Virus record (IMG/VR): IMGVR_UViG_3300020178_000897
Location: 1 to 64,000 of that record
Strand: one strand, 5' to 3'
Source: a virus
DNA length: 64,000 bases
Position 1 is the first letter of the stretch, and every line of letters begins with the position of its first letter. Of this stretch, positions 1-18,734 are shown one piece after another. The translations under genes were made by a program, and so were the position numbers. Below the pieces are notes generated by a model that saw only the letters and a list, made by a program, of their open reading frames with translations, searched no databases and was not told where the DNA came from.

Positions 1-75
1 ATTGCAACGTCGGCCTAAATCCCAAGTAATTTGGAAAATATTTCCTGATAATAAATCTATAGTGTCAAAACTCAT
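1..75 (-). CDS. Radical SAM protein, N-terminal fragment (cut by window edge)
   Basis: The minus strand reads from ATG at 73-75 without a stop to base 1, giving 25 codons. The visible peptide contains I-T-W-D-L-G-R-R-C-N, the kind of beta-strand plus first cysteine that precedes the CxxxCxxC cluster-binding motif in twitch/SPASM radical SAM proteins; the other two cysteines would lie outside the window. The start overlaps the stop of the upstream SGNH-like gene as ATGA, the same coupling seen through this operon. The family call rests on the short motif and on five complete radical SAM neighbours. Confidence 0.6.
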   Translation of the reverse strand, partial: MSFDTIDLLSGNIFQITWDLGRRCN

Positions 76-710
76 ACTAATTCTTTCTCAGTTAATTTTT
101 TAAAAAGCCATTGTGCTTCCCATTTATTACCATCATCTCCAAAATGTCTTCCATCGTCTTTGATATATTTTTGATATTTTTCTTTTCCTAAAATTTTTCT
201 AATGCAAGGAACCTTGGTTCCTTCATGATGTGAGTATACAAAATCAAAATTATTTTCTGCATAACCTAAGCTAACAGTATATTCAAAGTCTAATTGCTTC
301 CATTCTAAGTTAAGAAAATAATAATTTGCTAATTGGTCAGGAGTTTCTTGGCGAAGATTATGTACCTTAAACTTTTTTCTAGGCACGTGTTGGTAATGAT
401 AATTTGATGTTATTTCTTTAGGAGATTCAAAATAATGATCTTCTAGTACTTTCCACGATGTTAATCTGCCCGGAGTAGTACACTTTAAAATATACACATC
501 ATCTAAAGTATTGTAAAATTGTTTAACTTTTGATGAAAGATATAGATGATAATTTATACTTGTACCAGATACACCCCAATTATAAATTTTTAAATTAGGT
601 GCAAGTAACGACAGATATTCAGGAAAATTAGATCTGCCAGTCAAACATTCAGTTTCTCTAATTTGTCCTTCAACAAAACTGCAACCAAAAATGTGTATAC
701 GTTTAGACAT
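72..710 (-). CDS. SGNH/GDSL-type hydrolase-like protein
   Basis: 212 residues. The features of an SGNH hydrolase can be read in order: block I G-C-S-F near residues 9-12 with Ser11 as candidate nucleophile, a G-V-S-G-T-S turn at 46-51 in the place of the block II glycine, and D-G-R-H at 186-189 matching the block V DxxH pair. Such enzymes are esterases or acyl-transfer enzymes, often on glycans. The gene overlaps both neighbours by a few bases (stop in ATGA with the gene to its left, start overlapping the radical SAM gene at 703-2115), so it is translated with a radical SAM operon. A role in adding or removing acyl groups from a sugar or peptide is inference; the substrate is unknown. Confidence 0.6.
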   Translation of the reverse strand: MSKRIHIFGCSFVEGQIRETECLTGRSNFPEYLSLLAPNLKIYNWGVSGTSINYHLYLSSKVKQFYNTLDDVYILKCTTPGRLTSWKVLEDHYFESPKEITSNYHYQHVPRKKFKVHNLRQETPDQLANYYFLNLEWKQLDFEYTVSLGYAENNFDFVYSHHEGTKVPCIRKILGKEKYQKYIKDDGRHFGDDGNKWEAQWLFKKLTEKELV

Positions 711-2115
711 CTTTAAATATGTCCTTCATTTCTGGAAAAGTTTCATCGAATGAAATTCCACGCTGTTTATCACACAGTCCTAAGAATTCTTTCATTTCAG
801 GTAGACGTTGACTCCAGTCTTCGCTTTCCATAAATTGTAACATACCGTCAAGACGTTTAATACCATATTCTGCTTCTCGCCACTGGTCATATGTAACTTT
901 ACCTTTATGCCAACTAGGAATACATAATTCCCAATTAGCTTCTAACCACGGATAAAATTCTTCATATTTTTTACGGCACTGTTCTTTAAACCATTTAGGC
1001 AAAGATCTAACGTTAAGATGTGCCGGCCAATATACAAAATGAAAGTTTACTGTACCCGCTCCAAATGGATACATGTTAATCTTTTTAAATCCTTCTTGTA
1101 ATTTCCATTTGATAAAATCAGGAAGATAATAAATGTTTAATGCTTGTACTGCACAAGCAATTGTAACTTCAACATTATCTGTAGTTTCTTTATCTAAAAT
1201 ATGAAACACTTCTTTTGTTCTATCCCATTTACTAGGATAACGAATGTATTCATTCATTTGCTCAATGCTGTCTACGCTGTAATGGAATCTAACAAGTTTA
1301 AAATGACTCCATAATTCAAATAAATCGTCACGCCATTCAACACCATTTGAATTATAACGTAGTTCTAATTCTGGTGCAAGTCCTTGGCGTATTGCTTCCT
1401 CAAGTATTTCGTAGTGTTCTTCGATAATAAGACTTTCGCCGCCGGCAAAATAAATTTGCTTCATGTGTTTCATCTGTTCATAGAACTGTTCCCAAAATAC
1501 AGGATTTTGCTTATGCCAGTTATAACTACTACCATTGGTACTACCTTTGTTATCCCATTGCATAATCTCTTTAAGTGATTCATTTTTAACTTCTGGAAAA
1601 ATTGCTTTGTAATCTTTAATCCAACCCGAACTATCATGCGGACTACACATAACACATGCTAACTGACACTTGGTTCCAAAACGCAAATCAATGTATGCCA
1701 ATTGCGGAGGAACACTACCATCCGGTTGTGTTTCTTGTAAAATTTGATCTAGATCAACACGCTGACTCCAATATGCTGTTTCCCATTGACGCTTACTTCT
1801 ATGTCCATTTTCTTCTTCTCGGAAACATTTCATACAGCTAGGAGGCTTTTCACCTGCAAGCATTTGTTTACGTACATTCTTCATATACGTACTATTCCAT
1901 GCTGTATTAAGGTCAGTAACATTTAAATTATTAGGACGACCTTCTTCATCTTTAAGTATACCTACTTGTCCGCCATATTCTTTATCATTCGTTGGACCAA
2001 CGCTACTTGCATTTGCTGTACAACATACACGCATACTGCCGTCGGGTCTTGTGCTTAGATGCACCCATGGTAATAAACAAAATGTTTCTGATGGATACTT
2101 AGGTTTTTCTGTCAT
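703..2115 (-). CDS. Radical SAM protein with twitch/SPASM-like cysteines
   Basis: 470 residues. The radical SAM motif C-x3-C-x2-C is at Cys150, Cys154 and Cys157 (K-C-Q-L-A-C-V-M-C), which would bind the 4Fe-4S cluster that cleaves S-adenosylmethionine. A G-G-E motif typical of the SAM-binding strand follows (Y-F-A-G-G-E-S-L). Before the core are extra cysteine groups, F-C-L-L-P-W near residue 13, V-C-C near 31-32 and S-C-M-K-C near 94-97, as in proteins annotated as twitch-domain radical SAM in marine phages. The closest relative in the window is the 448-residue gene at 6957-8303, which has the same layout. It overlaps the genes on both sides. The substrate cannot be read from the sequence; a peptide or sugar modification is most likely. 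Confidence 0.82.
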   Translation of the reverse strand: MTEKPKYPSETFCLLPWVHLSTRPDGSMRVCCTANASSVGPTNDKEYGGQVGILKDEEGRPNNLNVTDLNTAWNSTYMKNVRKQMLAGEKPPSCMKCFREEENGHRSKRQWETAYWSQRVDLDQILQETQPDGSVPPQLAYIDLRFGTKCQLACVMCSPHDSSGWIKDYKAIFPEVKNESLKEIMQWDNKGSTNGSSYNWHKQNPVFWEQFYEQMKHMKQIYFAGGESLIIEEHYEILEEAIRQGLAPELELRYNSNGVEWRDDLFELWSHFKLVRFHYSVDSIEQMNEYIRYPSKWDRTKEVFHILDKETTDNVEVTIACAVQALNIYYLPDFIKWKLQEGFKKINMYPFGAGTVNFHFVYWPAHLNVRSLPKWFKEQCRKKYEEFYPWLEANWELCIPSWHKGKVTYDQWREAEYGIKRLDGMLQFMESEDWSQRLPEMKEFLGLCDKQRGISFDETFPEMKDIFKDV

Positions 2116-3113
2116 TTTAATGCCTCAAATCGTTGCGTTGCAACTTTGTTTTGTTTACAGTTTTCTATACACTTTGGAAAAATACCGTTTTTAATTCCTG
2201 TATATAAATTAGTATACCATTCACTATCAAAAATATCCTGTATACTATTATGTCCATTTAGTCTATGATGTTCAGTTCCGTGATCTTTACTGTAATGTTG
2301 CCATAGACCTCTAAATCCACTCTTAGTTCCCCACCAGCAACACGGAACAACATATCCATGATGTGTAACATATAGTCCTTGATCTTCTATTTTAGAACTA
2401 ATACATCTTGGAATAACTGTTGGAACTTCTTGTTTTTTCTCAACTTTAGGGTCACTTTTATGCTGAGAGTTTTTACCTAAGTCTGCTCTTGGGCTTCCGA
2501 TAAATTTTACTCTACTAAATCCTTCTTTGGCTGCAATATCTTCTATAAGATGAGCTTGATGTTCGTTATGCGAAAAATATATGAATTGCCATACAGCGTC
2601 GCCGCCGGCAGCAATATAATTTCTAAAATTTCTTTGTACTTTTTGCCAATCAACATTTACTCTATAAATATGGTTAGTATCTTCTAATCCATCTAATCCC
2701 CAATTTACTCTAACACGACCATTTGACTCTTTTGAAATTTCTCCCAACGTTGTCCAAAACTCATCATTACGTGTTCCGCCGTTAGTAGCAATAGAAATCT
2801 TAGGTTTGCTAGTAAACAATTCATCATTAGATAAAATCCATTTAACAATTTCAATTAAATCAGGATTAGTAGTTGCTTCGTCGTAGTTACCACACATATG
2901 GATTAGGCGCAAATCAGTCCATTTATCTTTAGATACCCAACTTTTAAATTGTTCTAAACTTACATACATACTATTCACATCAAAGTGATAATCCATATCA
3001 ATAAGTTTATCATTAATAAATGCACGAGCACAGGCAGGACATGCCGCGTTGCAATAATTTGACATTTCAATTTGCAGTTTAGTTTGTCTTTCTACTGGTA
3101 CTTGCCAACTCAT
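2112..3113 (-). CDS. Radical SAM protein with C-terminal SPASM-like cysteines
   Basis: 333 residues. The cluster motif is at Cys21, Cys25 and Cys28 (Y-C-N-A-A-C-P-A-C), close to the N-terminus as is usual for a short radical SAM barrel. The C-terminal third has cysteines in the SPASM/twitch pattern: R-C-I, then Y-V-V-P-C-C-W-W, then K-C-I-E-N-C near the end, which would hold an auxiliary Fe-S cluster. It shares this plan with the two genes upstream (3110-4177 and 4189-5256), so the three look like tandem duplicates that diverged. The start overlaps the stop of the next upstream gene by four bases (ATGA). Substrate unknown. Confidence 0.82.
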   Translation of the reverse strand: MSWQVPVERQTKLQIEMSNYCNAACPACARAFINDKLIDMDYHFDVNSMYVSLEQFKSWVSKDKWTDLRLIHMCGNYDEATTNPDLIEIVKWILSNDELFTSKPKISIATNGGTRNDEFWTTLGEISKESNGRVRVNWGLDGLEDTNHIYRVNVDWQKVQRNFRNYIAAGGDAVWQFIYFSHNEHQAHLIEDIAAKEGFSRVKFIGSPRADLGKNSQHKSDPKVEKKQEVPTVIPRCISSKIEDQGLYVTHHGYVVPCCWWGTKSGFRGLWQHYSKDHGTEHHRLNGHNSIQDIFDSEWYTNLYTGIKNGIFPKCIENCKQNKVATQRFEALK

Positions 3114-4177
3114 TCTTGTTCCACCATAACATTTTGATAGGCTTTATTAAAGCCACAACTAGCAACACACCGTTTCATATGTTTATTGTGTGACGGATTC
3201 CAGCTTTCTTCTAAAACCTTAGTATACCAAGGATGTTTCATAACTTCTTCAATGCTATGTTTTTTTAAACTATTCCATCCTGTAGAATATTCAGATAATT
3301 TTTCTAAAATGTTTTCTTTGTTCTTAAACGCACTATCCCACAAAAAACAACAAGGCCACATCTCTTGGTTTGCATTAATAAAAATTTCGCCTTCATGAAC
3401 ATACTTACAAACAATAGATTTTACAACTTCTTCATCTACTTGATTAGTTTGAATTTTATTCATCAACTCTAATACTTCGTCTTTACGTGCATGTTCTTTG
3501 CTACCAGTAGTAGTAATAGTTTTTACTTCTTTAGTAACGTTTCCGCGGCCTTCTTTTTTTGCAATTTGGGCAGTCCATTGATTTAAGCTATTACGCATGC
3601 CTGTTCTAATTACAAATTTTAGTCCCAAACTTTTAGCATGTGCTTTAGCAACTTCAATTTCGTGTTCGTTATGATCAAATACAATAAAAACCCACTTAGA
3701 TCTTGTATCATCACCTTTATAAGAATTTTCTGCGAACGCTTCGATATTACGTTTTACTATATCAAACTTTGTGTTTACACGATAAATGTGATTAGTTTCT
3801 CGATGTCCGTCAATACAGAACATCATAATTAAGTCTCTTCCGTATTGTTTGCTTAGTTCACCTAGTCTATACCAACTTGCTTTAGGTGCAACGCCGCCAT
3901 TAGTACTAATTGTAACATATGCGCCGCCTTCTAATAAGTATTCTACAATTTCAACAAACTGTGGGTGAATTGCAGGATCTCCTAGTACGCCGCATAGCCT
4001 AATATCTTTATCTTTTAAATGTGCCTCGTCTGGTAATATTCTTTTTAAGTCATCAAGTGAAAAACTTGTTACTTCTAAGATGTCTCGGTTAAGTGTTCTT
4101 GCACAACCTGGGCATGCGGCATTACAATCACTTGTAATTTCCAGTTCGATTTTGTGTATGTCATTTATGTTTATCAT
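3110..4177 (-). CDS. Radical SAM protein with C-terminal SPASM-like cysteines
   Basis: 355 residues. C-x3-C-x2-C at Cys18, Cys22 and Cys25 (D-C-N-A-A-C-P-G-C). The core carries I-S-T-N-G-G and I-D-G-H-R-E-T-N-H-I-Y-R strands that recur almost unchanged in the two sister genes. C-terminal cysteines are I-V-C-K, then W-P-C-C-F and finally R-C-V-A-S-C-G, the SPASM-like auxiliary cluster pattern. An 11-base gap separates it from the upstream gene and a four-base overlap joins it to the downstream one. Its position inside a run of three paralogues suggests a multi-enzyme pathway or parallel enzymes for related substrates; this is inference. Confidence 0.82.
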   Translation of the reverse strand: MININDIHKIELEITSDCNAACPGCARTLNRDILEVTSFSLDDLKRILPDEAHLKDKDIRLCGVLGDPAIHPQFVEIVEYLLEGGAYVTISTNGGVAPKASWYRLGELSKQYGRDLIMMFCIDGHRETNHIYRVNTKFDIVKRNIEAFAENSYKGDDTRSKWVFIVFDHNEHEIEVAKAHAKSLGLKFVIRTGMRNSLNQWTAQIAKKEGRGNVTKEVKTITTTGSKEHARKDEVLELMNKIQTNQVDEEVVKSIVCKYVHEGEIFINANQEMWPCCFLWDSAFKNKENILEKLSEYSTGWNSLKKHSIEEVMKHPWYTKVLEESWNPSHNKHMKRCVASCGFNKAYQNVMVEQE

Positions 4178-4188
4178 TATATATGTAC

Positions 4189-5256
4189 TTATTTAAACTG
4201 TTCAGTGAAAGGATCAAACTCGGCGCCGCACTTTGTAGCACATACTTTTAGTTTGCCGGCATCACAACTAGGTTTATTCCAACTATCTTGTATTTCATCA
4301 AATATACCTGTAGCAAAAACTTTATCAAGACCATTACGTGCGTCTAGTGCATTTTTATCAGGAATAAAATCCCATATCTGTTCTACTTTAGGATCTTTGT
4401 GCCACCATTTATACATACGACCAGCAGTCCAGCAACAAGGCAATGCTAGTCCTTCTGCTGTAATAAAGAGGCTACCTTCTTTTTTAACTTTACATACGAT
4501 AGGAGCCGCGTTAAAATAAGCATCCATACTGCCATATTTCTTGATAATGGCTTCTTGTTTTGTAAGAGCTTTGTTTTGGTATTGTGCGTCCGGCTTTTTG
4601 AGCTCTGCTGTATCTTTGCCTTTACGGTCTTTGGCCTGATGCTTTTCTTTTTTGTTTGTCTTTGCATCTACAAATCTTCCTGTTTTCTTTTTTATAAACT
4701 TCTCACATCCCCATGCATTAGCTAACTGTTCAGCTTCTTCGACTTGATGCTGATTGTGTTCAAATATAAGAAAGTCCCAACGTGCTCTACCGCCAGCATC
4801 GATAAACGCTCGCATGTTGCGTTCTACGTTGTCCCAATTTACCCCTTGTCTGTAAATATGATTCGTATCGCGAAGACCATCGACACTAAAAATAACAGCC
4901 CCCATTCTTCCAAAGACATAGGCCAATTCATTCCACCATTCAACATTTTTTGCTCCTGCATTTGTATTCATGCTTAACCACATCGTTGGGTTATGTTCAC
5001 GAAAGTATTTGAATATTTCTAATGTGTCACGAGCAACAATAGGATCACCTAAGTTACCACACATATACATAGTATTAAGCTGTGCAATAAACTCTGGAGA
5101 GAATATTTTTTTACAATCTTCTAATGTAAGTTCATCTAGATTAATATGAGGATTAATTCCTTCGCCATTCATATTACGGTCACACATAGGACAACTGGCT
5201 TGACAGTTTTGTGTAACTTCTAAATGAATTGATCGTATGTCGCTATAATTATACAT
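4189..5256 (-). CDS. Radical SAM protein with C-terminal SPASM-like cysteines
   Basis: 355 residues, the same length as its neighbour at 3110-4177. The motif Cys18, Cys22, Cys25 (N-C-Q-A-S-C-P-M-C) gives the radical SAM cluster. The S-V-D-G-L-R-D-T-N-H-I-Y-R strand matches the sister proteins. A lysine-rich insert (about residues 205-235) is special to this copy. C-terminal cysteines follow the shared plan: V-C-K-V, L-P-C-C-W and V-C-A-T-K-C-G. The start overlaps the end of the small gene at 5249-5500 by eight bases. It is one member of a set of at least six radical SAM enzymes on this operon. Confidence 0.82.
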   Translation of the reverse strand: MYNYSDIRSIHLEVTQNCQASCPMCDRNMNGEGINPHINLDELTLEDCKKIFSPEFIAQLNTMYMCGNLGDPIVARDTLEIFKYFREHNPTMWLSMNTNAGAKNVEWWNELAYVFGRMGAVIFSVDGLRDTNHIYRQGVNWDNVERNMRAFIDAGGRARWDFLIFEHNQHQVEEAEQLANAWGCEKFIKKKTGRFVDAKTNKKEKHQAKDRKGKDTAELKKPDAQYQNKALTKQEAIIKKYGSMDAYFNAAPIVCKVKKEGSLFITAEGLALPCCWTAGRMYKWWHKDPKVEQIWDFIPDKNALDARNGLDKVFATGIFDEIQDSWNKPSCDAGKLKVCATKCGAEFDPFTEQFK

Positions 5257-5500
5257 CTATTACCAACTTTATATCTTTACCCGGTCCAACTTTACTAGGC
5301 AAGTCACCGTATTGATCTACATACCACTTAATAACTGCACGATACCAGTTTTGACTATCGTGGTGTGCTTGTTTATTAAACTGCCAAATATTGTTGTTAG
5401 TTGCTTGCATTGTACTTAATGCTCTAGCACTTTCAGTTTGCAGTTGTCTAAGTGATAAATTACTTGTATCCAATGCGCATATACCTCGTATATTTTTCAA
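5249..5500 (-). CDS. Small conserved-looking protein of unknown function
   Basis: 83 residues with a TTG start at 5498-5500, chosen because A-A-G-G-A-G lies about nine bases upstream. It overlaps the end of the methyltransferase-like gene by 41 bases and the following radical SAM start by 8. No catalytic motif is visible. The middle is rich in Asn, Gln, His and Trp (N-I-W-Q-F-N-K-Q-A-H-H), and the end is G-P-G-K-D-I-K-L-V-I-D-V. A second possible start is the TTG nine codons in. Given its size and place between enzymes it could be a helper or a peptide substrate of the radical SAM proteins, but nothing in the sequence shows a leader/core arrangement. Confidence 0.5.
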   Translation of the reverse strand: MKNIRGICALDTSNLSLRQLQTESARALSTMQATNNNIWQFNKQAHHDSQNWYRAVIKWYVDQYGDLPSKVGPGKDIKLVIDV

Positions 5501-6293
5501 GATCTAATTCTCCTTCATACAATAATGTTGTCATAGGAGCCATTCTAGCAAAATCGTGCATGCTAGTAGTACAGTTAACGTGTTCTTCAACTTCATAGAA
5601 ATCGTTACTTTGTAATACAACTAATCTTCCTGCTGGAATTAAATCATACCACTCACTAAAATTTTTAATGTGTTCACAACTTGTATTAATAATAGTATTA
5701 GGAATATCTCCTAAATCAACGGTTGTTCCATTAGCACGTAATACTGTGTATATTGCATTTTCGTAATTTATCTCTTTAATATCTTTAGTACATGATTTAA
5801 ATTTCCAGCCGTCTAGCACCCAGTTTTTATTAAATGCTTCTGCTACTTCTCTGCAAGTATCATCGATGTCAAAACTTCTAAATTTTTCAATTTTTAAATT
5901 GTTTTCAAACATCATAGTAGCAAGTGTAGCATACCAACCAGCACATAAAAATACAACACCTAGATCAAGATTTAATTTTTTTAGTTCTGATACTAGCCAC
6001 TGTTTACTTTTTATCTGACCTCGACTAATACAGTCTGGATCAAAGTTTTCGTTTTTTTGTAATTTACGGATCCCTTCAATAAAAGGTGTATCTTTCATCT
6101 GTTTAATTGCACGAAATAAACTCCATACGTTATCCTGTAACAATGCTTTACGTAAATCATCTTTATTGTCATCTGTAACAATTCTAAAAATACTATTAAG
6201 ATCTTTGTCAATATATGCTCTACGTAGATCTGATAGTTTGCTACTAGTGGGATATAATAGTTCTAATCTATCTAAAATTTCATGAGTTTGCAT
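5460..6293 (-). CDS. SAM-dependent methyltransferase-like protein
   Basis: 277 residues from the ATG at 6291-6293, preferred over a TTG one codon earlier because GGAG sits seven bases before it. The central part reads like a class I Rossmann methyltransferase: a hydrophobic strand with a glycine (V-V-F-L-C-A-G-W-Y) in place of motif I, then R-S-F-D-I-D-D with an acidic end to strand 2, then a T-S-C-E-H-I strand near the site of motif IV. The glycine-rich loop is poorer than in standard enzymes, so activity is not assured. The N-terminal 100 residues are helical and unassigned. It is translationally coupled to its neighbours in the cargo operon. Confidence 0.5.
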   Translation of the reverse strand: MQTHEILDRLELLYPTSSKLSDLRRAYIDKDLNSIFRIVTDDNKDDLRKALLQDNVWSLFRAIKQMKDTPFIEGIRKLQKNENFDPDCISRGQIKSKQWLVSELKKLNLDLGVVFLCAGWYATLATMMFENNLKIEKFRSFDIDDTCREVAEAFNKNWVLDGWKFKSCTKDIKEINYENAIYTVLRANGTTVDLGDIPNTIINTSCEHIKNFSEWYDLIPAGRLVVLQSNDFYEVEEHVNCTTSMHDFARMAPMTTLLYEGELDLEKYTRYMRIGYK

Positions 6294-6969
6294 CAAATTG
6301 CTCCTTTAACCAATCAAAGTCGTTTATTAATTTAATATCATTGCTGTTAGAAAGGCCAAACTGCATACCAGCCCTAGCACCTCCCAACGCATACTCACCA
6401 AACTCTCTATCGTGTCCCAAGGTTGTCCAAGTTTTGAGTCTTTCATTTGTTTCATCCTCATGTTGTCTATCAATTGTTTTACTTGCTAATTTAGCACATT
6501 CTCTAAAAGCACTTTTCCATGTGTTAAACGGATCTGTATTAAATGCTGTAATATTAGATATCTCATTAATTACTTTAAATTTATCACTAATACTAGTTGT
6601 CATATCTGTTGTACTTGTATCCATTTGCTTAGTTAATTCAGTTGGAAATAACTTTACGCCGCCATACCCATAAATTAAATTATTAATAGGATTCATGCTT
6701 CTATAAACATGCACTGTATCAGATTCGGTTGTATAGTAATTAAAATCAAATTCATCAACAATTACTGCGTCGCCGTCTACAACAAAAAAGTAATTAGTAG
6801 TTGATAACTTAGCCGCTTCAATATGAGCATTGTGGATCCCTTTTACATTACTAACTCGCTTTACTCTGTCATCACCAAAGATTCCAACTGTATTAAATCT
6901 ACTATATAAATCGTCAAAATTTTGTTCTGCATTTGGTTCATGATAACTTATAAACACTATGTCGTACAT
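6280..6969 (-). CDS. Glycosyltransferase-like protein, S-Y-x-E-P-N-A-E family, short form
   Basis: 229 residues from the ATG at 6967-6969, which has GGAG eight bases upstream; a GTG three codons earlier is the alternative. The N-terminus I-V-F-I-S-Y-H-E-P-N-A-E is shared with the 306-residue protein at 8305-9225 (I-I-Y-L-S-Y-D-E-P-N-A-E). Both then have a segment ending in V-D-G-D (here Asp65 and Asp67 on the chosen start), which resembles the metal-binding DxD of GT-A glycosyltransferases, followed by N-G-L-M/I-Y-G-x-G-G. The shared plan supports a nucleotide-sugar-binding fold, but no family can be named with certainty. It is embedded between a radical SAM gene and the methyltransferase-like gene with overlaps on both sides. 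Confidence 0.5.
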   Translation of the reverse strand: MYDIVFISYHEPNAEQNFDDLYSRFNTVGIFGDDRVKRVSNVKGIHNAHIEAAKLSTTNYFFVVDGDAVIVDEFDFNYYTTESDTVHVYRSMNPINNLIYGYGGVKLFPTELTKQMDTSTTDMTTSISDKFKVINEISNITAFNTDPFNTWKSAFRECAKLASKTIDRQHEDETNERLKTWTTLGHDREFGEYALGGARAGMQFGLSNSNDIKLINDFDWLKEQFDANS

Positions 6970-8303
6970 TGTTTGCACTCCTTGTAAAAATTCTTTAATT
7001 CAGGAAATACAGTTAAGAAATCGGTGCCTCGGCGTTTGTCAAACTGAGTAATAAATTCATAAAACATAAATCTACGTTCTTTAGCAAGACTGCCAAACTC
7101 TTCTGGATTTTTAAATCGTTTATCTAAATCTTGCACAATTCTTTTTAAATCATTTGTTTCATGCTCGTCAAAATTTTCTTCCATAAACTTTATACAAGGA
7201 ATTAAATATGTTTCAATCATGTCTTCAGTTGCAATCATTGCATCAAGAAATCCAGGATTTCTTACATATGGAATTGCAATTCTCACTCTGTTTTTAAAAC
7301 TATTACGTAGTCTTAACACAATTCCAAGAAACGGTCTAAATGTAGGAAAACTTAAAATATTAAATGCTGACATAAAACTTAGTTTTCCGTTAGTATTTTT
7401 TAGATACAATAATACATTATCATAGAATTGTTGCCAATTCATTCCTGTTCTACTATACTCTGCTTGCGCTCCTTTACTTTCAGCACTTACATGTAAGGTA
7501 AATCCTTTAATACAATTATTATTTTCAAGATGCTGTATTTTTTTAATAAACTTATTCCATAGCTTTCCTGGGGGACATGCATTTGTATTAATAGAAAATT
7601 CTAACTGAGGTTGAGGATTATCTATTAAATGTTGCAATACTTTATCAGTATGTTTACTTAAAAGAGGTTCACCTCCTGTAATACGAAAAGTGTGCATATG
7701 TTTAACTGCTTCAGGAAACCATTTCCAAAATGCGTTAATATACGGGTTATCTTCTCTTTCAGGAATTTGCTTTTGATATTCATCTAGTTGATTGTAAAAC
7801 CAATTGATCGTACTAAACTTATAATGACCGTGTTCTTTAATTTCTTCAGTCCATTTACTACTAAATGCTGGTCCACAATAACTACACTTAAAATTGCATA
7901 CATTAGAAAAACTTACTTCAACATATCTAGGATAAAAATCATCATATGCGTTAGAATTTACAATTTTGTGATAATCTGGCCAACTCCAATAATTTCTACT
8001 TTTCCATATTCTATCACTATAATGATCCGTGTTATCTTCAATGCGCCAACAGTAATCACATTCACTAGGTCTTTCACCGCTTTTCATCTGTTGGCGTGTA
8101 TTCTTTTTAAACATTGTATTATGTAGTAATTGCGGATTTTCTTCAACTTCGTTAATTGGAATTGTATGTGCCTTTACATGATGACAACTATGATTTAATC
8201 CTGATCCTAAGTGTATAGTAACCTGTGTCCATTTAGCCAAACAGAATCCGCATCCTACTTGATTTAACTTTTCTTTAACTTTTTTAGGATCTGTTAATTC
8301 CAT
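6957..8303 (-). CDS. Radical SAM protein with twitch/SPASM-like cysteines
   Basis: 448 residues. Cluster motif at Cys136, Cys140 and Cys143 (V-C-N-F-K-C-S-Y-C), followed by the G-G-E strand F-R-I-T-G-G-E-P-L. Upstream cysteine groups are G-C-G-F-C near 18-21, S-C-H-H near 40 and E-C-D-Y-C near 82-85, matching the layout of the 470-residue protein at 703-2115. The C-terminal half contains the T-D-F-L-T-V-F-P-E-L tail also seen in that protein as S-F-D-E-T-F-P-E-M. The start is one base from the stop of the upstream S-Y-x-E-P-N-A-E gene. The substrate is unknown. Confidence 0.82.
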   Translation of the reverse strand: MELTDPKKVKEKLNQVGCGFCLAKWTQVTIHLGSGLNHSCHHVKAHTIPINEVEENPQLLHNTMFKKNTRQQMKSGERPSECDYCWRIEDNTDHYSDRIWKSRNYWSWPDYHKIVNSNAYDDFYPRYVEVSFSNVCNFKCSYCGPAFSSKWTEEIKEHGHYKFSTINWFYNQLDEYQKQIPEREDNPYINAFWKWFPEAVKHMHTFRITGGEPLLSKHTDKVLQHLIDNPQPQLEFSINTNACPPGKLWNKFIKKIQHLENNNCIKGFTLHVSAESKGAQAEYSRTGMNWQQFYDNVLLYLKNTNGKLSFMSAFNILSFPTFRPFLGIVLRLRNSFKNRVRIAIPYVRNPGFLDAMIATEDMIETYLIPCIKFMEENFDEHETNDLKRIVQDLDKRFKNPEEFGSLAKERRFMFYEFITQFDKRRGTDFLTVFPELKNFYKECKQCTT

Positions 8304-8304
8304 T

Positions 8305-9225
8305 TTATTCCTTGTCTATAATAAACTGCTGGGCACTATTTCTACTAGGATTTTGATAAACTGTTTTAAAAAAAGCACTTTGTTCTTCAGTAAATGGCTG
8401 AATAGCAATTGGACATTCTAGTTCATTTACTAGGCGTGCGCCATGTATAAAAATTTCGTCATGTAATACTTCTAGTGGCAACGCATCTCGGCCGGCCCAT
8501 AGATCGTTTAAATATTTAAAATCTCTTACATTTACATAATCCCAATCATCTAACATTGTAGCAACTAGACCTTCACGTGCTCCATAAATTGCCCAGTTTC
8601 CATTTGGAGTATCAGAACCAACCATTAACCAAATCCACAGTCTGTGTAAATTTTTCCAATGGCCAGAAAGGAAATTTTCTTTAGTAGGTTTAACACCTCG
8701 GTCTAATGCCATCTTTACACCTTCACGAAATCCAGCTCGCCATGCTTGATGTGGCGTGGCGTTATTATACACATCACTATAGCAACTGTTCTGTTGAATG
8801 TATTGCAAGTCCCAACAAAAATCTACTTGGGCAGACTTATTATCTGGATCGGCGTTTTCGTGTGTACGCATATTAAGCACATACTCTTTAGGCCAACATT
8901 TTAAACCGCCGTTGCCGTACATAAGTCCATTAATAGCATTTTTACCACACCAGCTAATAACACTATTTTCTAAATCTGTATGTTCGTCAAAGTCTAATAC
9001 TTGATTAATAAAATCTGGACGAATTTTATTATCGCCATCAACTGTAATAAATCGATCCGTTTCACTTAATTCAGCACATGCTTTATGTGCGGCATCACTA
9101 CCTTCTACGCCATGCACACGTTTAGCCCAAGGTGCCTTAGTAAGCAAGTCAGCATAATTTTCTTCTGCATTAGGTTCATCATAACTCAAATATATAATAT
9201 CTTGTTCTGCAATCTTTAACTTCAT
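8305..9225 (-). CDS. Glycosyltransferase-like protein, S-Y-x-E-P-N-A-E family, long form
   Basis: 306 residues. N-terminal signature I-I-Y-L-S-Y-D-E-P-N-A-E (residues 10-21), then F-I-T-V-D-G-D with Asp63 and Asp65 as a DxD-like pair, then N-G-L-M-Y-G-N-G-G-L-K. It parallels the 229-residue gene at 6280-6969 through the first 200 residues and adds a C-terminal part. The layout fits a GT-A type transferase that uses a nucleotide sugar, but this is inferred from motifs only. The gene overlaps the next upstream gene by four bases, and the first base of the next gene downstream follows closely. Confidence 0.5.
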   Translation of the reverse strand: MKLKIAEQDIIYLSYDEPNAEENYADLLTKAPWAKRVHGVEGSDAAHKACAELSETDRFITVDGDNKIRPDFINQVLDFDEHTDLENSVISWCGKNAINGLMYGNGGLKCWPKEYVLNMRTHENADPDNKSAQVDFCWDLQYIQQNSCYSDVYNNATPHQAWRAGFREGVKMALDRGVKPTKENFLSGHWKNLHRLWIWLMVGSDTPNGNWAIYGAREGLVATMLDDWDYVNVRDFKYLNDLWAGRDALPLEVLHDEIFIHGARLVNELECPIAIQPFTEEQSAFFKTVYQNPSRNSAQQFIIDKE

Positions 9226-9743
9226 TTCTTTTCCTCATACACGCATCTAGTTATTTTGCTATTTGAATAAATGCTGTATTCATCTGGTACGTTTAAATCT
9301 ACATGTTGTGTGTCACTTAAATTGAACTTAACTGACTTATACAAAAAATGCGGATCTTCTTTTTTTGTTACACTAAACAGTATTTCTTCTTCTAACTTAG
9401 AGTCTACAAGACTCTGATTTGTACTAATATAACATAAATTATGTTGCTTGTCAACTGTAAATATTAGATCATGCAAACTATCATCAGATATATGCAATAC
9501 TTTATTGAAAACAAATTTATCATTTATAGATATGTTCTTTTTTAACTTATAAGTTTTAGTTATAATGTCAAACAGAACTCTGTAATCTTCCATTTTATCT
9601 TCATAGGACTGTATTGGTGCTATTTCTCTTTCGGTAACTTCAATATATTCGTAGCCATCTTCAATGGAAGCCCCTACACTAAACAGTTCGCCTGTTTCTT
9701 TAACAAAACATGCATACTGTTTTCTATCCCAATTAGCATACAT
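9222..9743 (-). CDS. Hypothetical protein
   Basis: 173 residues from the ATG at 9741-9743, chosen over a start 18 codons upstream because GGAG lies eight bases before it and because the longer form would run further into the upstream gene. I do not recognise the family. The protein is mixed alpha/beta by composition, begins M-Y-A-N-W-D-R-K-Q-Y and has no signal peptide, membrane segment or cysteine cluster. It sits between the glycosyltransferase-like genes and overlaps both, so a role in the same pathway is likely but unproven. Confidence 0.6.
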   Translation of the reverse strand: MYANWDRKQYACFVKETGELFSVGASIEDGYEYIEVTEREIAPIQSYEDKMEDYRVLFDIITKTYKLKKNISINDKFVFNKVLHISDDSLHDLIFTVDKQHNLCYISTNQSLVDSKLEEEILFSVTKKEDPHFLYKSVKFNLSDTQHVDLNVPDEYSIYSNSKITRCVYEEKK

Positions 9744-10533
9744 TGTATTTCTCCATAATTTGATTACAAAATTTATCTTCTGTATAATGAAATACACCTA
9801 ACTGACTATAATTTCCTATTTTTAAGTTACATTCATCATCCATATAATACGGAATGTCATCTAACCAATTATCACTTGGATTACTCCAGTCTTGTACTTT
9901 TGATTTCATGTGAGTAAATGATAATAAGTTGCAAGAGTATTTTTCTAAATTAGTATTTAAAACTGCTATTGCATGATTGATATCCATACTACTTAACCTA
10001 GGCTTTAATTTCTTTAAGTAAATATTGTAAAATTCCTCATGATTTTTACAAACTAATTCTAGATGTTTATAATATTGTAATCCAATATCGTTCTTTTTAA
10101 AATAATGAAATGCACAATACACGTTTGGTAAGTTATTTTTTATAAATGCTTGTCTATAATAATTATCTTTAACTATAGTACCTTTATATGTTTGAACATT
10201 TGTAGTAAAGCATACGTCATATTTTTCTAAATAGGTCCAAACATGGTCTATATTAGATAAAAATATCATGTCAGTATCTAAAACAATAGTTTCTGTATAG
10301 GGAGTTACATGAAAGATTTTCCAACGATCTTCAGTACGATAAAAGTCGGTGCCAGATTGCCAAGGTATAGCAATTACATTATCAAATACATTACGATACT
10401 CATCTGGAAGTTTATCATTAGTAATAATAGAAACACTATTAATTTCTTGTGTTTTCTTAATACTCAATGCGCAAAGATATGCCTGTTTCACATAATCTTT
10501 GCCTGAAGCCATCATTACATATCCTTTAGACAT
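9733..10533 (-). CDS. GT8-like glycosyltransferase
   Basis: 266 residues. It begins like a GT-A enzyme with a conserved Y-V-x-Q-A segment (D-Y-V-K-Q-A-Y-L), continues with F-D-N-V-I, and carries the metal- and nucleotide-sugar-binding motif T-I-V-L-D-T-D-M with Asp86 and Asp88. This pattern matches family 8 type glycosyltransferases, which move a sugar from a UDP-sugar to an acceptor. It is a clear paralogue of the gene just upstream (10526-11356), with which it overlaps by eight bases. Likely targets are virion proteins (the fibre genes are next door) or host surface glycans; the sequence does not decide. Confidence 0.68.
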   Translation of the reverse strand: MSKGYVMMASGKDYVKQAYLCALSIKKTQEINSVSIITNDKLPDEYRNVFDNVIAIPWQSGTDFYRTEDRWKIFHVTPYTETIVLDTDMIFLSNIDHVWTYLEKYDVCFTTNVQTYKGTIVKDNYYRQAFIKNNLPNVYCAFHYFKKNDIGLQYYKHLELVCKNHEEFYNIYLKKLKPRLSSMDINHAIAVLNTNLEKYSCNLLSFTHMKSKVQDWSNPSDNWLDDIPYYMDDECNLKIGNYSQLGVFHYTEDKFCNQIMEKYNVC

Positions 10534-11356
10534 TTATTAACTTATCCAAACTAAATTTATTCATTACGTGTACATTCATATTATTTGTTGATGCTAATGT
10601 ATACTCGCCATGAATATTCTCCTTTTCAAGAAGAAATGTTAATTGTTCATCGTGTAGCTTATGTAAAATATCTCTATCTAGAGAATAATATAACTTTCCA
10701 GGCAACGATTTAGCCCAGTCTAAATCTTTAAATCCGTTCAGTATGTGTATTGCAATACTAAACGCATGATCATTTCTAAAGTTACGAGATCCTAGATCAT
10801 AAACATATTGATAATGTTCCCAATTGTTTACTACATAATTTAATATAGTAAAGAATGTTTTAATTTCTGGCGTTTTTTTAAAATAAAATATTGAAGCCCA
10901 ATAAAATGGAATACCCTTATCATTAATATAATCAAATTCTTTATGCTTGCGCCATGATGCTACATCAATACATTCTTTATAGATTTGAAATTCATGGATG
11001 CTATCAAATGCGTGTTTCAATGTATCATTACAAATAATAATATCAGTGTCTAATACTAAGGTCTGATTATAAGGAGTTAACTCATAACTGTTAGACCTAC
11101 CAAAATTTTTAAAATATAAAGTTTTATAAGTTTCTTGGCCGTTTCGATATCGTTTAAAATTATTATCTGAGTCGCTGATAGTAATAACGTTATCAAATAT
11201 TTTTCTATAACTGCTATTAATTGCATCTGGAGTTGAAGTTACAACCGTAGTGGGCAAGTTTAAATGCTTGCGAATTCGATTAGCAAGCAAAACTGCTTGC
11301 TTTACATAATCAATTTCACCATTATTATTTGCAAAGCATAATACACCTTTACTCAT
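10526..11356 (-). CDS. GT8-like glycosyltransferase
   Basis: 276 residues, paralogous to the gene at 9733-10533. Conserved points in order are D-Y-V-K-Q-A-V-L near residue 16, F-D-N-V-I-T-I near 54 and T-L-V-L-D-T-D-I with the DxD pair Asp103 and Asp105. The C-terminal part has H-V-M-N-K-F, where family 8 enzymes often have a metal-binding histidine. It overlaps the 115-residue gene upstream by eight bases. Two adjacent, diverged transferases suggest sequential addition of two sugars, which is inference. Confidence 0.68.
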   Translation of the reverse strand: MSKGVLCFANNNGEIDYVKQAVLLANRIRKHLNLPTTVVTSTPDAINSSYRKIFDNVITISDSDNNFKRYRNGQETYKTLYFKNFGRSNSYELTPYNQTLVLDTDIIICNDTLKHAFDSIHEFQIYKECIDVASWRKHKEFDYINDKGIPFYWASIFYFKKTPEIKTFFTILNYVVNNWEHYQYVYDLGSRNFRNDHAFSIAIHILNGFKDLDWAKSLPGKLYYSLDRDILHKLHDEQLTFLLEKENIHGEYTLASTNNMNVHVMNKFSLDKLINV

Positions 11357-11731: not shown

Positions 11732-12646
11732 TTAGAGGTTGTCAGTTGTATTGAAAGTTGGCGCTGGAACGTTAACACTACTTGCGTTATTTGGTCTTCT
11801 TTGTTGTATTGTACTTGTTGTTGTAGCCGTTACTGCTTCGTCAAAGTTGGGATTAGGGCCTTTATCTTCATTGAATGTAACACGGAACGTTAGTACTGCA
11901 CCATTTTTCTGTGCTTCAACTAAGTAATCATTGGCTCCGTACGCACTTGCTGTCTTGTTAAACACTGCTGTATAAGAGCCAGGTAAGTTTGAATATCCAT
12001 AATTAGTGCCAGTTGAACCGTTGCTTGTTGTACTTCTGCCAAATACTACAGTTCCTACGCTAGTCATCAAATTTCTCCAGTCGTTGTTAATTGGAGTATT
12101 TCCTGAACCAATAGTACCACTTAGGTTAATAGTTCCGCCTGCGTTAAAAAATACACGCATATGTTCTGCACCACTAATTGTAGTTGTAGAACCGTCGCCG
12201 TTTGTTACAGCATAACCGGGGAACGTTACTGTAAATATGTGGTTAATATCAGTTGACCAACTTGCAGTTCTTTGACTTGATGTTCCTGCCTGCAATCCTG
12301 TTTGGTTTGCATTAACATTGAGTCTTGCGCCTTGACATGTAATACTCAAGGATTCGTACTGTACATATCCTTCTTTTGATATAGTATTGCTTTCCTCAAC
12401 AGTATCGCCTACTGATGGTTGTGCAATTTCTGTAGGTACTGCACCAGTTTGGTGTAGTCTAATTCTATACATGTCATTGTAAAGTTTGACCATGTCGGCA
12501 GCTTGCACTGTTGCGCCTGAAGAAATTGTAGCACTTTCAACTGCTTGTCCGTATCCTTCGTCTCCGGAACCGAGCCCTAAGACTGCGGCAATTCTTGCTC
12601 GAATAATGTTGTACCTTGCCGCGGTAATTGTATCGCCTACTGCCAT
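11732..12646 (-). CDS. Virion structural protein, fibre-associated
   Basis: 304 residues, rich in Thr, Ser, Asn and Gly, with little charge and long beta-prone stretches, as in phage fibre and adhesin subunits. The N-terminus (M-A-V-G-D-T-I-T-A-A-R-Y-N) is an amphipathic start that could attach to another tail part. The C-terminus ends with a low-complexity T-T-T-S-T-I-Q-Q-R-R-P segment. I recognise it as the kind of structural protein found next to fibre genes in T4-like marine phages but cannot name a T4 equivalent. A late-type box precedes it at 12665-12672 and A-G-G-A precedes the ATG. Confidence 0.6.
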   Translation of the reverse strand: MAVGDTITAARYNIIRARIAAVLGLGSGDEGYGQAVESATISSGATVQAADMVKLYNDMYRIRLHQTGAVPTEIAQPSVGDTVEESNTISKEGYVQYESLSITCQGARLNVNANQTGLQAGTSSQRTASWSTDINHIFTVTFPGYAVTNGDGSTTTISGAEHMRVFFNAGGTINLSGTIGSGNTPINNDWRNLMTSVGTVVFGRSTTSNGSTGTNYGYSNLPGSYTAVFNKTASAYGANDYLVEAQKNGAVLTFRVTFNEDKGPNPNFDEAVTATTTSTIQQRRPNNASSVNVPAPTFNTTDNL

Positions 12647-12664: not shown

Positions 12665-12672
12665 TACTTATA
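12665..12672 (-). promoter_or_regulatory. T4-late-type promoter box TATAAGTA
   Basis: The minus strand reads G-TATAAGTA-T, one mismatch from the T4 late consensus TATAAATA. It overlaps the stop codon of the upstream gene (GTA TAA) and lies 19-26 bases before the ATG at 12646, a fitting place for a late promoter read by gp55. The same overlap with a stop codon occurs at 14175-14182 and 18727-18734. Confidence 0.5.
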
Positions 12673-14146
12673 CTTTAAGTACGCACTCAACTAATTTTTC
12701 TGACTCTTCAGTGTTTGATTCCAATGCAATACCAACTAAATTTCCGCCATTGATTACTGTATTTGCTGTACCGTTGTCTCCAACATATACTGCCTGTCCT
12801 TTTTTAACTGAACCTGTTACTCTTACAGGAACACGACCTTTTAGTGCAATGTACTGTCCGTCTGCTTCTGAATTCATCATAAATGCAGGATCAGTCGATA
12901 CAACACCAATTGCTATATCACCTACTTTTGTAGGTTCTACTTCGTGATCAGGATGATCGCAAACTGCTACTACTGTACCAAATGGTAATTCTTCGTTTGT
13001 TGAATATTTTTCTGCTAAGTCAGCATATCTAGCACTAGTTGAAATACCATTAAACACATTAGCAGATAAGTTACCTGAACTATCTCTAACTGCTACAGTA
13101 TTATTTGTTGCGTTTACATCACCTGTTCTAAAGTTTGCACCAACTTGTAGGTTAGTTGCATTTGTAGCAAGACCGTTAAATGTAGTTGCGTACATGTTTC
13201 TAAACTTAAAGTTTGAAGTGCCAACGTCGTATGTTGTCGTAGATGTTGGAATTAGTCCAACAGCCGAAACATGGAATGGTTCAGTTGTTACGCCTCCAAC
13301 AGATTTAACTCTAAACCTAATCTTTTGTCCAGTAGTATTCTCAATAACACCTTCGTCACCAGTTCCTGCTTGGTCAATATATACTGCTAAGTCGTTTGCC
13401 GCGCCGACTGTAAATCCAACATCGCCAAATCTAACAACACTAGTAAAATTTGCGTTACCTGAAAGTGCATATGCCGAAGCTAGTTGACCGTTTAATCGGT
13501 CTGAATCAGTTGCAGTTCCCCAAAATCTATGAGTACTTGATGTAACACCTGTTGATCCTGTGTTTCGTAAGGTAACACCTTGTCTAATTACATCAAAACC
13601 TGTAATTACATTCGAAGGATCTGTTTGGTCAATAGTAAATTCGGCATTACTAATAATAAATTGTACGCCGTCTTCGACTGTACCTTTAATAATAGTTCTA
13701 TTTGTTAGGGTAGTATCTCTTACTTGCGAAGTAACCATAGCTGTTACTGTATCACCAATAGATTGTGGACCAATTAGGACAAATCCACCGTCGCTATTTT
13801 GTGCATACAGTTGGTTATTTGATGTATCCCACCAAAAATCACCAGTAGTTAATCCAACTGGTTGTGTGCCGGATACTTCAGCTCCGCCTGTTGTTCTAAA
13901 TTTTGTGCCGTCATAAAACTTGAGCTTCTTTAAGCTACTATCAAACCAAATCTGACCGCTTAATGGGTTAGCAGGTGAATTGCCGCTAGAGAAGTTTTCA
14001 AGTAAATGTACAAAGTTTTCGTTTTGAATTTCACCATAACCGGCATAGTTTTTACCTACTAACTTAATAGTAGTACTTTGGTCAATGGTTCCGTCCTCGA
14101 CAGTGGCTAACTGTTGTCCATTTGTTAAATTAATTATATATGCCAT
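12668..14146 (-). CDS. Tail fibre-like protein, shared N-terminal module, copy 1
   Basis: 492 residues. The first 140 residues match the N-termini of the two genes upstream: M-A-Y-x-I-N, then V-G-K-N-Y-A-G-Y-G-E, N-E-N-F, L-L-E-N-F, L-S-G-Q-I-W and N-N-Q-L-Y. This module probably docks the fibre to the tail. The middle is beta-rich and Thr/Asn-rich. The C-terminal 130 residues start with S-A-R-Y-A-D-L-A-E-K-Y, a segment common at the ends of cyanophage-type fibres, and contain G-T-V-V-A-V, K-G-R-V-P-V-R-V and K-K-G-Q-A-V-Y-V-G-D. The protein is likely part of a receptor-binding appendage. A perfect late box precedes it. Confidence 0.7.
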   Translation of the reverse strand: MAYIINLTNGQQLATVEDGTIDQSTTIKLVGKNYAGYGEIQNENFVHLLENFSSGNSPANPLSGQIWFDSSLKKLKFYDGTKFRTTGGAEVSGTQPVGLTTGDFWWDTSNNQLYAQNSDGGFVLIGPQSIGDTVTAMVTSQVRDTTLTNRTIIKGTVEDGVQFIISNAEFTIDQTDPSNVITGFDVIRQGVTLRNTGSTGVTSSTHRFWGTATDSDRLNGQLASAYALSGNANFTSVVRFGDVGFTVGAANDLAVYIDQAGTGDEGVIENTTGQKIRFRVKSVGGVTTEPFHVSAVGLIPTSTTTYDVGTSNFKFRNMYATTFNGLATNATNLQVGANFRTGDVNATNNTVAVRDSSGNLSANVFNGISTSARYADLAEKYSTNEELPFGTVVAVCDHPDHEVEPTKVGDIAIGVVSTDPAFMMNSEADGQYIALKGRVPVRVTGSVKKGQAVYVGDNGTANTVINGGNLVGIALESNTEESEKLVECVLKV

Positions 14147-14174
14147 TTACTAATACCCCTAATTGTGTTATATG

Positions 14175-14182
14175 TATTTATA
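14175..14182 (-). promoter_or_regulatory. T4-late promoter box TATAAATA
   Basis: A perfect TATAAATA on the minus strand, overlapping the TAA stop of the upstream fibre gene and 29-36 bases before the ATG at 14146. This spacing leaves a leader of roughly 20 bases. It would be the late promoter for the fibre gene at 12668-14146 and genes downstream. Confidence 0.7.
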
Positions 14183-16013
14183 CTAAAACGCCCGGAGTTA
14201 GGTCTTGCACATATGTCCATACTCCTCCTACTACTCTATACAGTTTTAACGAACGTTGTACGGTTGAACTAATCGAACCAGTAGCGTTATTAAATGTAGC
14301 ACTGTTAATTACACTTACAGATCCGTTGTCATTACCGCTGATATCTAATGCTTGTACAATAGTTGTTGATTCATTAAACGCAGTGTCTAGTGCAGAACCT
14401 GTTAGCGTAGCTGTAGCACCTGTTGTAGTTGTGCAATGTATTCTTGCTTCTGTATTATCTTGTTTATTTCCTGATGGAACAATGTCATTTAAAATAATGC
14501 CAACATTAGTATTAAGTTGTGCGCCGGTTCCTAACCCTGTAACATCAAGAGTTAAAGGAATTACTTCTAAATTAATCTGACTGTCAACATAATTTTTTGT
14601 AGCAACATCTTGAGGAGCAACTGGATCTAATACATTTCTAATTTTTCTACTAGTAACAAAATTTAAATCACCAGCAAGTGTTGCATTTAATCCGTTGCCG
14701 CTTCCGTCAACAGCATTAGTAACAACAGAAATACCGCCTGGAAAACTAATATTGCCAATAGCTGCCGATGTCAGTGTACCTAACTGTGTAATACCACTTG
14801 CATTAGAGCCTGTAATAATATCAACCCCATTGAATTTAAGTGATCCTGATCCTGTAATATTAATGCTTGTATTTGATGTCCACGCATTAGTTACATTTCG
14901 CCATAAAAATTCTTTGTTGCCGTTTGCCGACTTAACAATAATACCAGATTCATCAACTTGTGCATCTGTTAATAATGTACTATCTCCTGCATCAGCAAGA
15001 GTAATACTTTTATCTTTAACAACAAGTTCTTCAGTTCCAATAGTAACAGTATCACCATCTACTATAAGACTTCCTGTAACTCTTAAATCGCCGCCAACAT
15101 CTAATGTGTATGATGGATTATCATTATAAATTCCAACACGGCTATTCTGCGATTTAATACTTAGTGCATTTTGAATACCAGAACTATTACGCATTTGAAT
15201 AGTATAATTTTGATTTGAAATTTCGTTTAGAGCAACAACGCCTTGACTAGTTACTTTTAAAACATGGTTCTCAGATAATCCTACTGTAAGTCCGCCGTTG
15301 TTTCTAACAATTAATGCACCAGTAGTTGTATCGTCACTATCACTTGCTAGGAACTGACCGGCTCCTCGCTCTACTCCAGCATCATCAACTAGCTTTCTAG
15401 TATTGTTTGCTGTTCCAGCAAAAATAAAATCACTGTCAACAACGTTAAATCCTTTAACTACATCTCCAGTAAAACCTGGAATTGTATCTACATTCTGTGG
15501 AGTGAATCCAATTTTACTCCATAAGCCAACTAAAGAGCCGCCAACCCAATACTTAACAATAGTTCTACTTGTACCTGTACTATCAAGCACAGTAATAACT
15601 TGTGGGCCCGAGCGTCCTTGGAACGCATTATAAATAGGTCCTGCTAATTCTAAATCAGTGCCGTCAAAAAAGTAAAGTTGATTAGAATCGTTGTTAATCC
15701 AAAGATCACCTGCAACCATTACTGGCTGTGTAGGTTGCACAATTGGGCCTCCGCCAGTTGTCCAGTTAGTTCCAGTGTAAACTTTTAATCTTGATACTGA
15801 TGAATCCCACCAAATTTGCCCTGATAAAGGATTAGCTGGTGCTGATGAACCTGAAAAGTTTTCTAGCAGTCTTATAAAGTTTTCGTTAAATGCTTCACCA
15901 AAACCCGAATATCCTTTTCCTACTAGTGTAATATCAGTAGTTGAAGCGTCAATTTGTCCATCTGCGAGATTAACTAATAATGCTCCGTTTGTTTTATTAA
16001 TTTGATATGCCAT
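14178..16013 (-). CDS. Tail fibre-like protein, shared N-terminal module, copy 2
   Basis: 611 residues. The N-terminal module is the same as in the two neighbouring fibre genes (L-V-G-K-G-Y-S-G-F-G-E, N-E-N-F-I-R-L-L-E-N-F, P-L-S-G-Q-I-W-W-D). About residues 300-350 hold G-S-L-I-V-D-G-D-T-V-T-I-G with E-E-L-V-V-K-D-K-S-I-T-L, a motif that recurs in the structural protein at 62751-63716. A V-A-T-K-N-Y-V-D-S-Q-I segment near residue 480, typical of fibre trimerisation regions, precedes a variable C-terminus. It starts three bases after a double stop (TAATAA) of the upstream gene. The likely role is a receptor-binding fibre of the tail. Confidence 0.72.
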   Translation of the reverse strand: MAYQINKTNGALLVNLADGQIDASTTDITLVGKGYSGFGEAFNENFIRLLENFSGSSAPANPLSGQIWWDSSVSRLKVYTGTNWTTGGGPIVQPTQPVMVAGDLWINNDSNQLYFFDGTDLELAGPIYNAFQGRSGPQVITVLDSTGTSRTIVKYWVGGSLVGLWSKIGFTPQNVDTIPGFTGDVVKGFNVVDSDFIFAGTANNTRKLVDDAGVERGAGQFLASDSDDTTTGALIVRNNGGLTVGLSENHVLKVTSQGVVALNEISNQNYTIQMRNSSGIQNALSIKSQNSRVGIYNDNPSYTLDVGGDLRVTGSLIVDGDTVTIGTEELVVKDKSITLADAGDSTLLTDAQVDESGIIVKSANGNKEFLWRNVTNAWTSNTSINITGSGSLKFNGVDIITGSNASGITQLGTLTSAAIGNISFPGGISVVTNAVDGSGNGLNATLAGDLNFVTSRKIRNVLDPVAPQDVATKNYVDSQINLEVIPLTLDVTGLGTGAQLNTNVGIILNDIVPSGNKQDNTEARIHCTTTTGATATLTGSALDTAFNESTTIVQALDISGNDNGSVSVINSATFNNATGSISSTVQRSLKLYRVVGGVWTYVQDLTPGVLV

Positions 16014-16016
16014 TTA

Positions 16017-18726: not shown

Positions 18727-18734
18727 TATTTATT
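18727..18734 (-). promoter_or_regulatory. T4-late-type promoter box AATAAATA
   Basis: The minus strand reads C-C-A-AATAAATA-C, one mismatch from TATAAATA. It overlaps the stop codon of the giant gene and lies 18-25 bases before the ATG at 18709, followed by an A-A-A-A-A-G-G ribosome site. The same variant occurs before gp6 at 37208-37215. Confidence 0.45.

Follow-up and report, generated by a model that had tools for sequence, protein, structure and literature searches.

An array of radical-SAM genes beside the fibre genes of a marine T4-like virus

Radical-SAM arrays in phages have been reported before, and the one described here, in a marine T4-like virus, is real, intact and widespread. 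The island probably decorates a sugar or a protein chemically at the surface of the virus or of the cell. Phage arrays of this size, a dozen radical-SAM enzymes, have been on record since 2010 with no function given, and no published function for such phage arrays was found in the literature searched, where subscription journals were thinly covered. The arrays are intact and common among marine viral contigs, and they can be reduced to a testable core of a glycosyltransferase-like (GT-like) protein, a methyltransferase-like (MT-like) protein, a 74-aa protein and one radical-SAM protein, S3.

The window, by which we mean the whole 64-kb stretch of DNA analysed, is the left part of a virus contig of 167,518 bp, and the contig itself ends at the window's base 1. 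It encodes a portal protein, a major head protein, a late sigma factor and baseplate genes of a T4-like myovirus. Identity of the capsid protein to its counterparts in large T4-like phages, including Sinorhizobium phage Phosso and Vibrio phage 2.275.O, reaches 70.7%, and no close DNA match was found among cultured phages.

Radical-SAM genes in the window and beyond its edge

Positions 1-8303 hold, all on the minus strand, five complete radical-SAM genes and the opening 25 codons of a sixth:

1..75, minus strand: 5′ end of the sixth radical-SAM gene (25 codons, then the contig edge; ATG at 75-73)
703..2115, minus strand: T1, N-terminal-twitch radical-SAM protein (NF033640, 426 bits against a cut-off of 170)
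2112..3113, minus strand: S1, radical-SAM protein with C-terminal twitch/SPASM cysteines (PF04055, 35.8 bits)
3110..4177, minus strand: S2, radical-SAM protein with C-terminal twitch/SPASM cysteines (PF04055, 35.7 bits)
4189..5256, minus strand: S3, the island's core radical-SAM protein, with a C-terminal twitch (PF04055, 31.2 bits)
6957..8303, minus strand: T2, N-terminal-twitch radical-SAM protein (NF033640, 298.5 bits against a cut-off of 170)

The PF04055 score exceeded the Pfam cut-off in four of the five complete genes (703-2115, 2112-3113, 3110-4177 and 4189-5256); T2 fell slightly below it (25.8 against 29.5 bits) and was identified through NF033640, whose curated cut-off T1 and T2 both pass across their full length. 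The initial annotation had seen a common second layout in these two genes, and both are indeed N-terminal-twitch members of this subfamily. S1-S3 differ from it in that their twitch cysteines are C-terminal, and in hmmscan they stayed below its cut-off (S1 48.5 and S3 39.8 bits, core only; S2 not listed). The count of six radical-SAM genes, one of them cut by the edge, was borne out by the PF04055 and NF033640 matches, although it understated the array. The three genes of 2112-5256 had been described as tandem paralogues with C-terminal cysteines, which is true, but they are old, being mutually 26-29% identical. T1 and T2 share 23.5% identity, and no two radical-SAM paralogues of the window exceed about 32% identity over their length; the array is therefore not a recent duplication. 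Gene overlaps, correctly described as a few bases, amount to 4-22 bases. Read from base 75, the sixth gene begins MSFDTIDLLSGNIFQITWDLGRRCN..., and its ATG overlaps the stop of an SGNH-like gene.

The CX3CX2C cysteines were 100% conserved in the orthologues of all five complete genes (19-127 sequences each), and the auxiliary cysteines were 95-100% conserved. In T1, C13, C31, C32, C94, C97, C150, C154 and C157 are 100% conserved across 108 orthologues; conservation is 95-100% for the S1 cysteines (19 orthologues) and 98-100% for the S2 cluster cysteines (53 orthologues), and the S3 auxiliary cysteines C255, C274, C275, C339 and C343 are invariant in 127. Median dN/dS was 0.09-0.12 for T1, S3 and the 74-aa protein, with dS high and the ratios rough. 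Judged by their sequences, the radical-SAM enzymes of the array are intact. A viperin-like role, as antiviral or nucleotide-analogue enzymes directed at competing phages, is extremely improbable for them: T1, S2 and T2 gave weak pVip profile matches, but the window proteins reach at most about 27 bits on NF038283 against a cut-off of 180, and the enzymes have auxiliary-cluster twitch domains, which viperins lack.

Structure prediction, proposed with the initial annotation, placed S3 in the SPASM/twitch radical-SAM fold (AF2 model, pLDDT 94), with fold matches to SuiB, BlsE, SkfB, MoaA, anSME and DesII at Z 16-19. These scores are nearly tied between peptide-acting and sugar-acting enzymes, which the VIA-align ranking does not separate. 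BlsE, BtrN and DesII, acting on sugars, and SuiB, SkfB and anSME, acting on peptides or proteins, share the fold and cluster cysteine layout of S3 at only 11-17% identity, and their substrates are not transferable to it. The best PDB match of the S-family profile was BlsE, which acts on a nucleoside sugar. S3 has 17 residues before the motif, its alignment to SuiB starts at SuiB residue 102, and it has no N-terminal RRE.

When contig-end joining was tried, the right contig end did not carry on the sixth gene. The leftward extension suggested earlier was obtained through a nearly identical sister contig (L012), whose T1 protein is 100% identical and which runs past the window edge. There the cut gene is a full 392-aa radical-SAM gene (L012:12041-13219; PF04055 E=6.5e-14) followed by six more, giving a total of 12 radical-SAM genes in about 16 kb. 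Each of the 12 matches PF04055 or NF033640, and the seven beyond the window's five exceed the PF04055 cut-off. The description of the cluster as a complete pathway did not hold, since the window has under half of the array and the composition differs among relatives. L012:17532-18456 encodes a 207-aa radical-SAM protein that lacks C-terminal auxiliary cysteines and, after it, a second protein of 107 aa that matches SPASM weakly (PF13186 E=0.0077); the pair is possibly a split radical-SAM/SPASM enzyme.

All 49 related records, found through the array genes T1, S2 or S3 and mostly fragments, have 5-22 PF04055 matches each, and CX3CX2C is missing in only 10 of the 1305 radical-SAM matches in the fetched loci, which excludes chance. 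Thus the genes co-occur in relatives instead of being scattered, and their cluster cysteines have not been lost. S3 was found in 409 or more IMG/VR stretches. When relatives were instead picked by the capsid gene, an independent marker, 8 of the 15 longer records had no PF04055 match, and two large records (186 and 210 kb) gave only two weak ones, many of the capsid-selected records being fragments. Because capsid-selected relatives often lack it, the array is evidently an accessory island and would not be a lineage-defining feature. The densest record seen, IMGVR_UViG_3300007609_001002 (L153), has 22 PF04055 matches on a 59.8-kb contig.

Campylobacter phages CP220 and CPt10 carry 11 and 12 radical-SAM proteins and a five-gene interchangeable module (Timms et al. 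2010, PMC2853527). They resemble the marine array in being T4-like, with many radical-SAM proteins, an amidinotransferase and neighbours annotated as NDP-sugar-transferase-like. Unlike the marine arrays, which reach 22 radical-SAM genes per record, they have 11-12, no homologue of the 74-aa protein was detected in them, and the similarity of their radical-SAM proteins to those of the window is about 34%, core only. The marine T4-like genome TARA_ERS488813_N000010 has 12 radical-SAM genes (Nishimura et al. 2017, PMC5332604), which those authors grouped with an A-type carrier and read as Fe-S metabolism. An auxiliary role of this kind, in which Fe-S enzymes support host or viral Fe-S biology, is very unlikely for the present array. 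In TARA_ERS488813_N000010 the carrier accompanies the array, whereas most arrays here lack it (PF01521 absent in 13 of 16 array records, our own contig included, the records being fragments), and the diverse tailoring neighbours would be left unexplained.

The conserved core and the 74-aa protein

When the 2,243 distinct proteins of the fetched loci were clustered, a recurrent gene order emerged: GTab, MT, sm83 (the 74-aa protein) and S3. These four make up the conserved core of the island, and its periphery is swappable. The corresponding window genes and their neighbours are as follows:

72..710, minus strand: SGNH/GDSL-like hydrolase, tentative (PF00657 E=0.036, below cut-off)
5249..5473, minus strand: sm83, 74 aa from a TTG start, three-helix by prediction, candidate partner or substrate
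5460..6296, minus strand: MT, class-I methyltransferase-like, tentative (Rossmann-like motifs only)
6280..6978, minus strand: GTa, glycosyltransferase-like, tentative (DGD motif)
8305..9225, minus strand: GTb, GTa paralogue (same cluster as GTa, 33% identical)
9733..10533, minus strand: GTc, GT8-like, tentative (DTD motif; glycogenin E=0.74, not significant)
10526..11356, minus strand: GTd, GT8-like, tentative (DTD motif; glycogenin E=0.28, not significant)

The neighbour identities given at first stood in part. The SGNH/GDSL-like family is present in 26 loci, with a sub-threshold match, and the MT and GT assignments come from motifs and weak similarity, with no curated family match. MT had no Pfam or PDB family match and is 26.6% identical (E=7e-7) to a "putative methyltransferase" of the cultured pelagiphage Mosig. 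GTa and GTb matched no family in the Pfam, NCBIfam or PDB profile searches; GTa lies directly upstream of MT in relatives (143 GTab>MT adjacencies). The NDP-sugar transferase of CP220, considered as a GTab relative, showed no similarity to the GTab profile.

The protein sm83, which would be 83 aa long if the upstream TTG at 5500 were used, starts with TTG in 78 of 103 cases and has 24 invariant columns among 30 diverse homologues. It is found in at least 396 viral contigs and was not found in cultured phages. Of 84,980 prokaryote species genomes scanned by pattern, one contig only (L192), from the "Gammaproteobacteria MED685" MAG, had it. That contig has a phage-type array with eight radical-SAM genes within 20 kb, sm83 and S3, and is probably of viral origin, placed in a bacterial genome by binning. 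The AF2 model of sm83 (pLDDT 84.5) is all-helical, a globular three-helix fold along the whole length, with no significant fold match in the PDB or among viral models. Matches to designed proteins and antibody chains covered short stretches only and were judged to be chance.

The initial annotation had stated that a substrate peptide was not obvious, and in this the strongly conserved 74-aa protein, whose gene lies immediately upstream of 4189-5256, had been overlooked. We considered a RiPP-like system in which S3 and other radical-SAM enzymes modify sm83 as a ribosomal substrate that may be part of the virion, and find this distinctly unlikely. In its favour, sm83 lies directly upstream of S3, its overlap with the next gene is most often 8 nt, and S3 is present in every complete sm83 locus (57 of 64, the remaining 7 stopping at a contig edge). 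Median identity is 78% for sm83 and 77% for S3, against about 60% for GT and MT, and the median dN/dS of sm83 is 0.10 (dS high, ratio rough). On the other hand, sm83 is present in 64 of 74 T1-selected and 72 of 78 S3-selected loci, counts that include genes recovered beyond initial ORF picking, and S3 persists without it in the other 16. These span several lineages, and sm83 was rejected as an obligatory partner of S3. The dependence is one-sided, sm83 needing S3 but S3 not needing sm83, and this speaks against sm83 as the sole substrate of S3. A RiPP precursor layout, split into a leader and a variable core, was not found for sm83, the sole candidate examined, which is conserved throughout its predicted globular fold, and modelling of S3 and sm83 gave no RRE. 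The distance correlation of sm83 with S3 is also modest (rho 0.46, against 0.63 for S3 with GT); such mirrortree-type correlations are confounded by common ancestry. A related proposal, decidedly improbable, is that sm83 is a phage-only ribosomal substrate or carrier, modified by S3 and other array enzymes and displayed on virions. If true, it would mean dedicated viral post-translational chemistry without a cellular counterpart, yielding a modified protein or glycopeptide.

Fibre genes, the late box and a proposed role

The co-directional run into the array is headed by a fibre gene:

12668..14146, minus strand: fibre-type protein (phrog_19602 tail fiber, E=4e-12)

From this gene through the array, the genes are co-directional with intergenic gaps of -65 to +35 bases. 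A T4 late box, TATAAATA, occupies 14182-14175, a short way upstream of where the fibre gene starts. The box was found upstream of 16 of 43 orthologues of g11732 (window 11732-12646) and 4 of 37 orthologues of g12668, mostly about 26-36 nt before the start. Among orthologues in relatives it was upstream of no GTa-d, MT, sm83, S1 or g11349 gene, and of about 1-3% of the other radical-SAM genes. It is not enriched over the whole window; hence only the comparison of gene positions was used. We infer that the array is expressed late together with the fibres. The earlier picture of a virus-carried, co-directional modification island is thus supported, with the island beside fibre genes.

As in phage host-recognition clusters, the island adjoins fibre genes (12668-18098) in the structural region of a T4-like genome. 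The pelagimyophage host-recognition cluster has radical-SAM cassettes (Zaragoza-Solas et al. 2020, PMC7029224) and GT-like genes; like the island described here, it is hypervariable, belongs to the structural region and adjoins fibre genes, and VrlC lies beside it. In Mosig (MT647606), UDP-Ara4N aminotransferase, carbamoyltransferase and radical-SAM genes lie beside the tail fibres and VrlC. Mosig shares the MT homologue, but in its island the profile search gave only two radical-SAM matches, and neither sm83 nor T1 nor an S3 orthologue of full length was detected.

In the relatives, the array periphery includes an amidinotransferase whose best PDB match is the inosamine-phosphate amidinotransferase StrB1 (1bwd, E=2.4e-19) and which is 29% identical to that of the CP220 module, as well as a NodU-type carbamoyltransferase (PF02543/PF16861), a B12-binding radical-SAM protein, a fatty-acid desaturase, UDP-glucose dehydrogenase and an AMP-binding enzyme. 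Nitroreductase, SDR and PP-loop proteins are weakly supported there, and QueC-like and aspartyl-hydroxylase-like proteins also occur, with a QueC-like gene adjoining the L012 array. By its predicted families, this periphery fits the tailoring of small molecules or sugars more readily than one peptide pathway; the evidence comes from relatives, and the only sugar-type enzymes in the window itself are the tentative GTs.

Phage radical-SAM enzymes act in DNA hypermodification pathways, and the QueC-like gene beside the L012 array could point to a pathway of the cytosine, thymine or deazaguanine type. This is highly improbable here, as a C5-cytosine methylase occurs in 1 of 16 records, QueD/PTPS in 3 of 16 and the thymidylate-synthase family in 6 of 16, our own contig not among the last, and the array stands in a late fibre context. 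The DNA modification, Fe-S assembly and viperin readings were largely rejected through family searches.

Our preferred reading, held tentatively and at somewhat less than even confidence, is a late-expressed tailoring island in the host-recognition region, with modified sugars attached to the phage's own fibres. Transcription would start at the late promoter at the fibre genes and run into the array. GT-like enzymes would build or transfer a sugar, on which the radical-SAM enzymes would carry out C-H chemistry (dehydrogenation, epimerisation or deoxygenation, as in BtrN and DesII), and periphery enzymes (amidino-, carbamoyl-, methyl- and amino-type tailoring) would vary the product. The finished group would be attached to the fibres, altering receptor binding or antigenic identity, and sm83 would be an S3-linked accessory or carrier protein. 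This reading is suggested by the packing with fibre genes and the position of the late box, by the sugar-type periphery in relatives and the CP220 and Mosig parallels, and by BlsE as the best S-family PDB match together with the lack of an N-terminal RRE in S3. Against it, GTa and GTb have no confirmed glycosyltransferase homology, the S3 fold fits peptide and sugar enzymes equally, the late box is exact in a minority of relatives only, and no fibre with a visible modification signature was found. Alternatively, the island may remodel the host surface polysaccharide (LPS/O-chain) and not the virion, blocking superinfection or aiding progeny release. Zaragoza-Solas et al. read GT8-type genes of the same pelagimyophage region in this way (PMC7029224), and nucleotide-sugar enzymes are present in relatives' arrays. 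We nevertheless regard it as somewhat unlikely, since a position in a late fibre operon points to activity close to assembly, whereas an exclusion function would be expected early, and we noticed no flippase, polymerase or membrane-bound enzyme among the core proteins.

About 16 kb of oxygen-sensitive radical chemistry beside receptor-binding genes suggests a strong arms race at the surface, and the array enzymes represent a large untapped set of likely C-H-activating catalysts.

Two further large ORFs were observed in the window. A 767-aa ORF (53315-55618) without a PHROG or Pfam match lies directly upstream of the portal gene, the usual place of a terminase or sheath gene in T4-like phages. 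Positions 18730-33693, between the baseplate and fibre genes, are taken up by one ORF of 4987 aa, which has an FG-GAP repeat and matches CBM_5_12 weakly.
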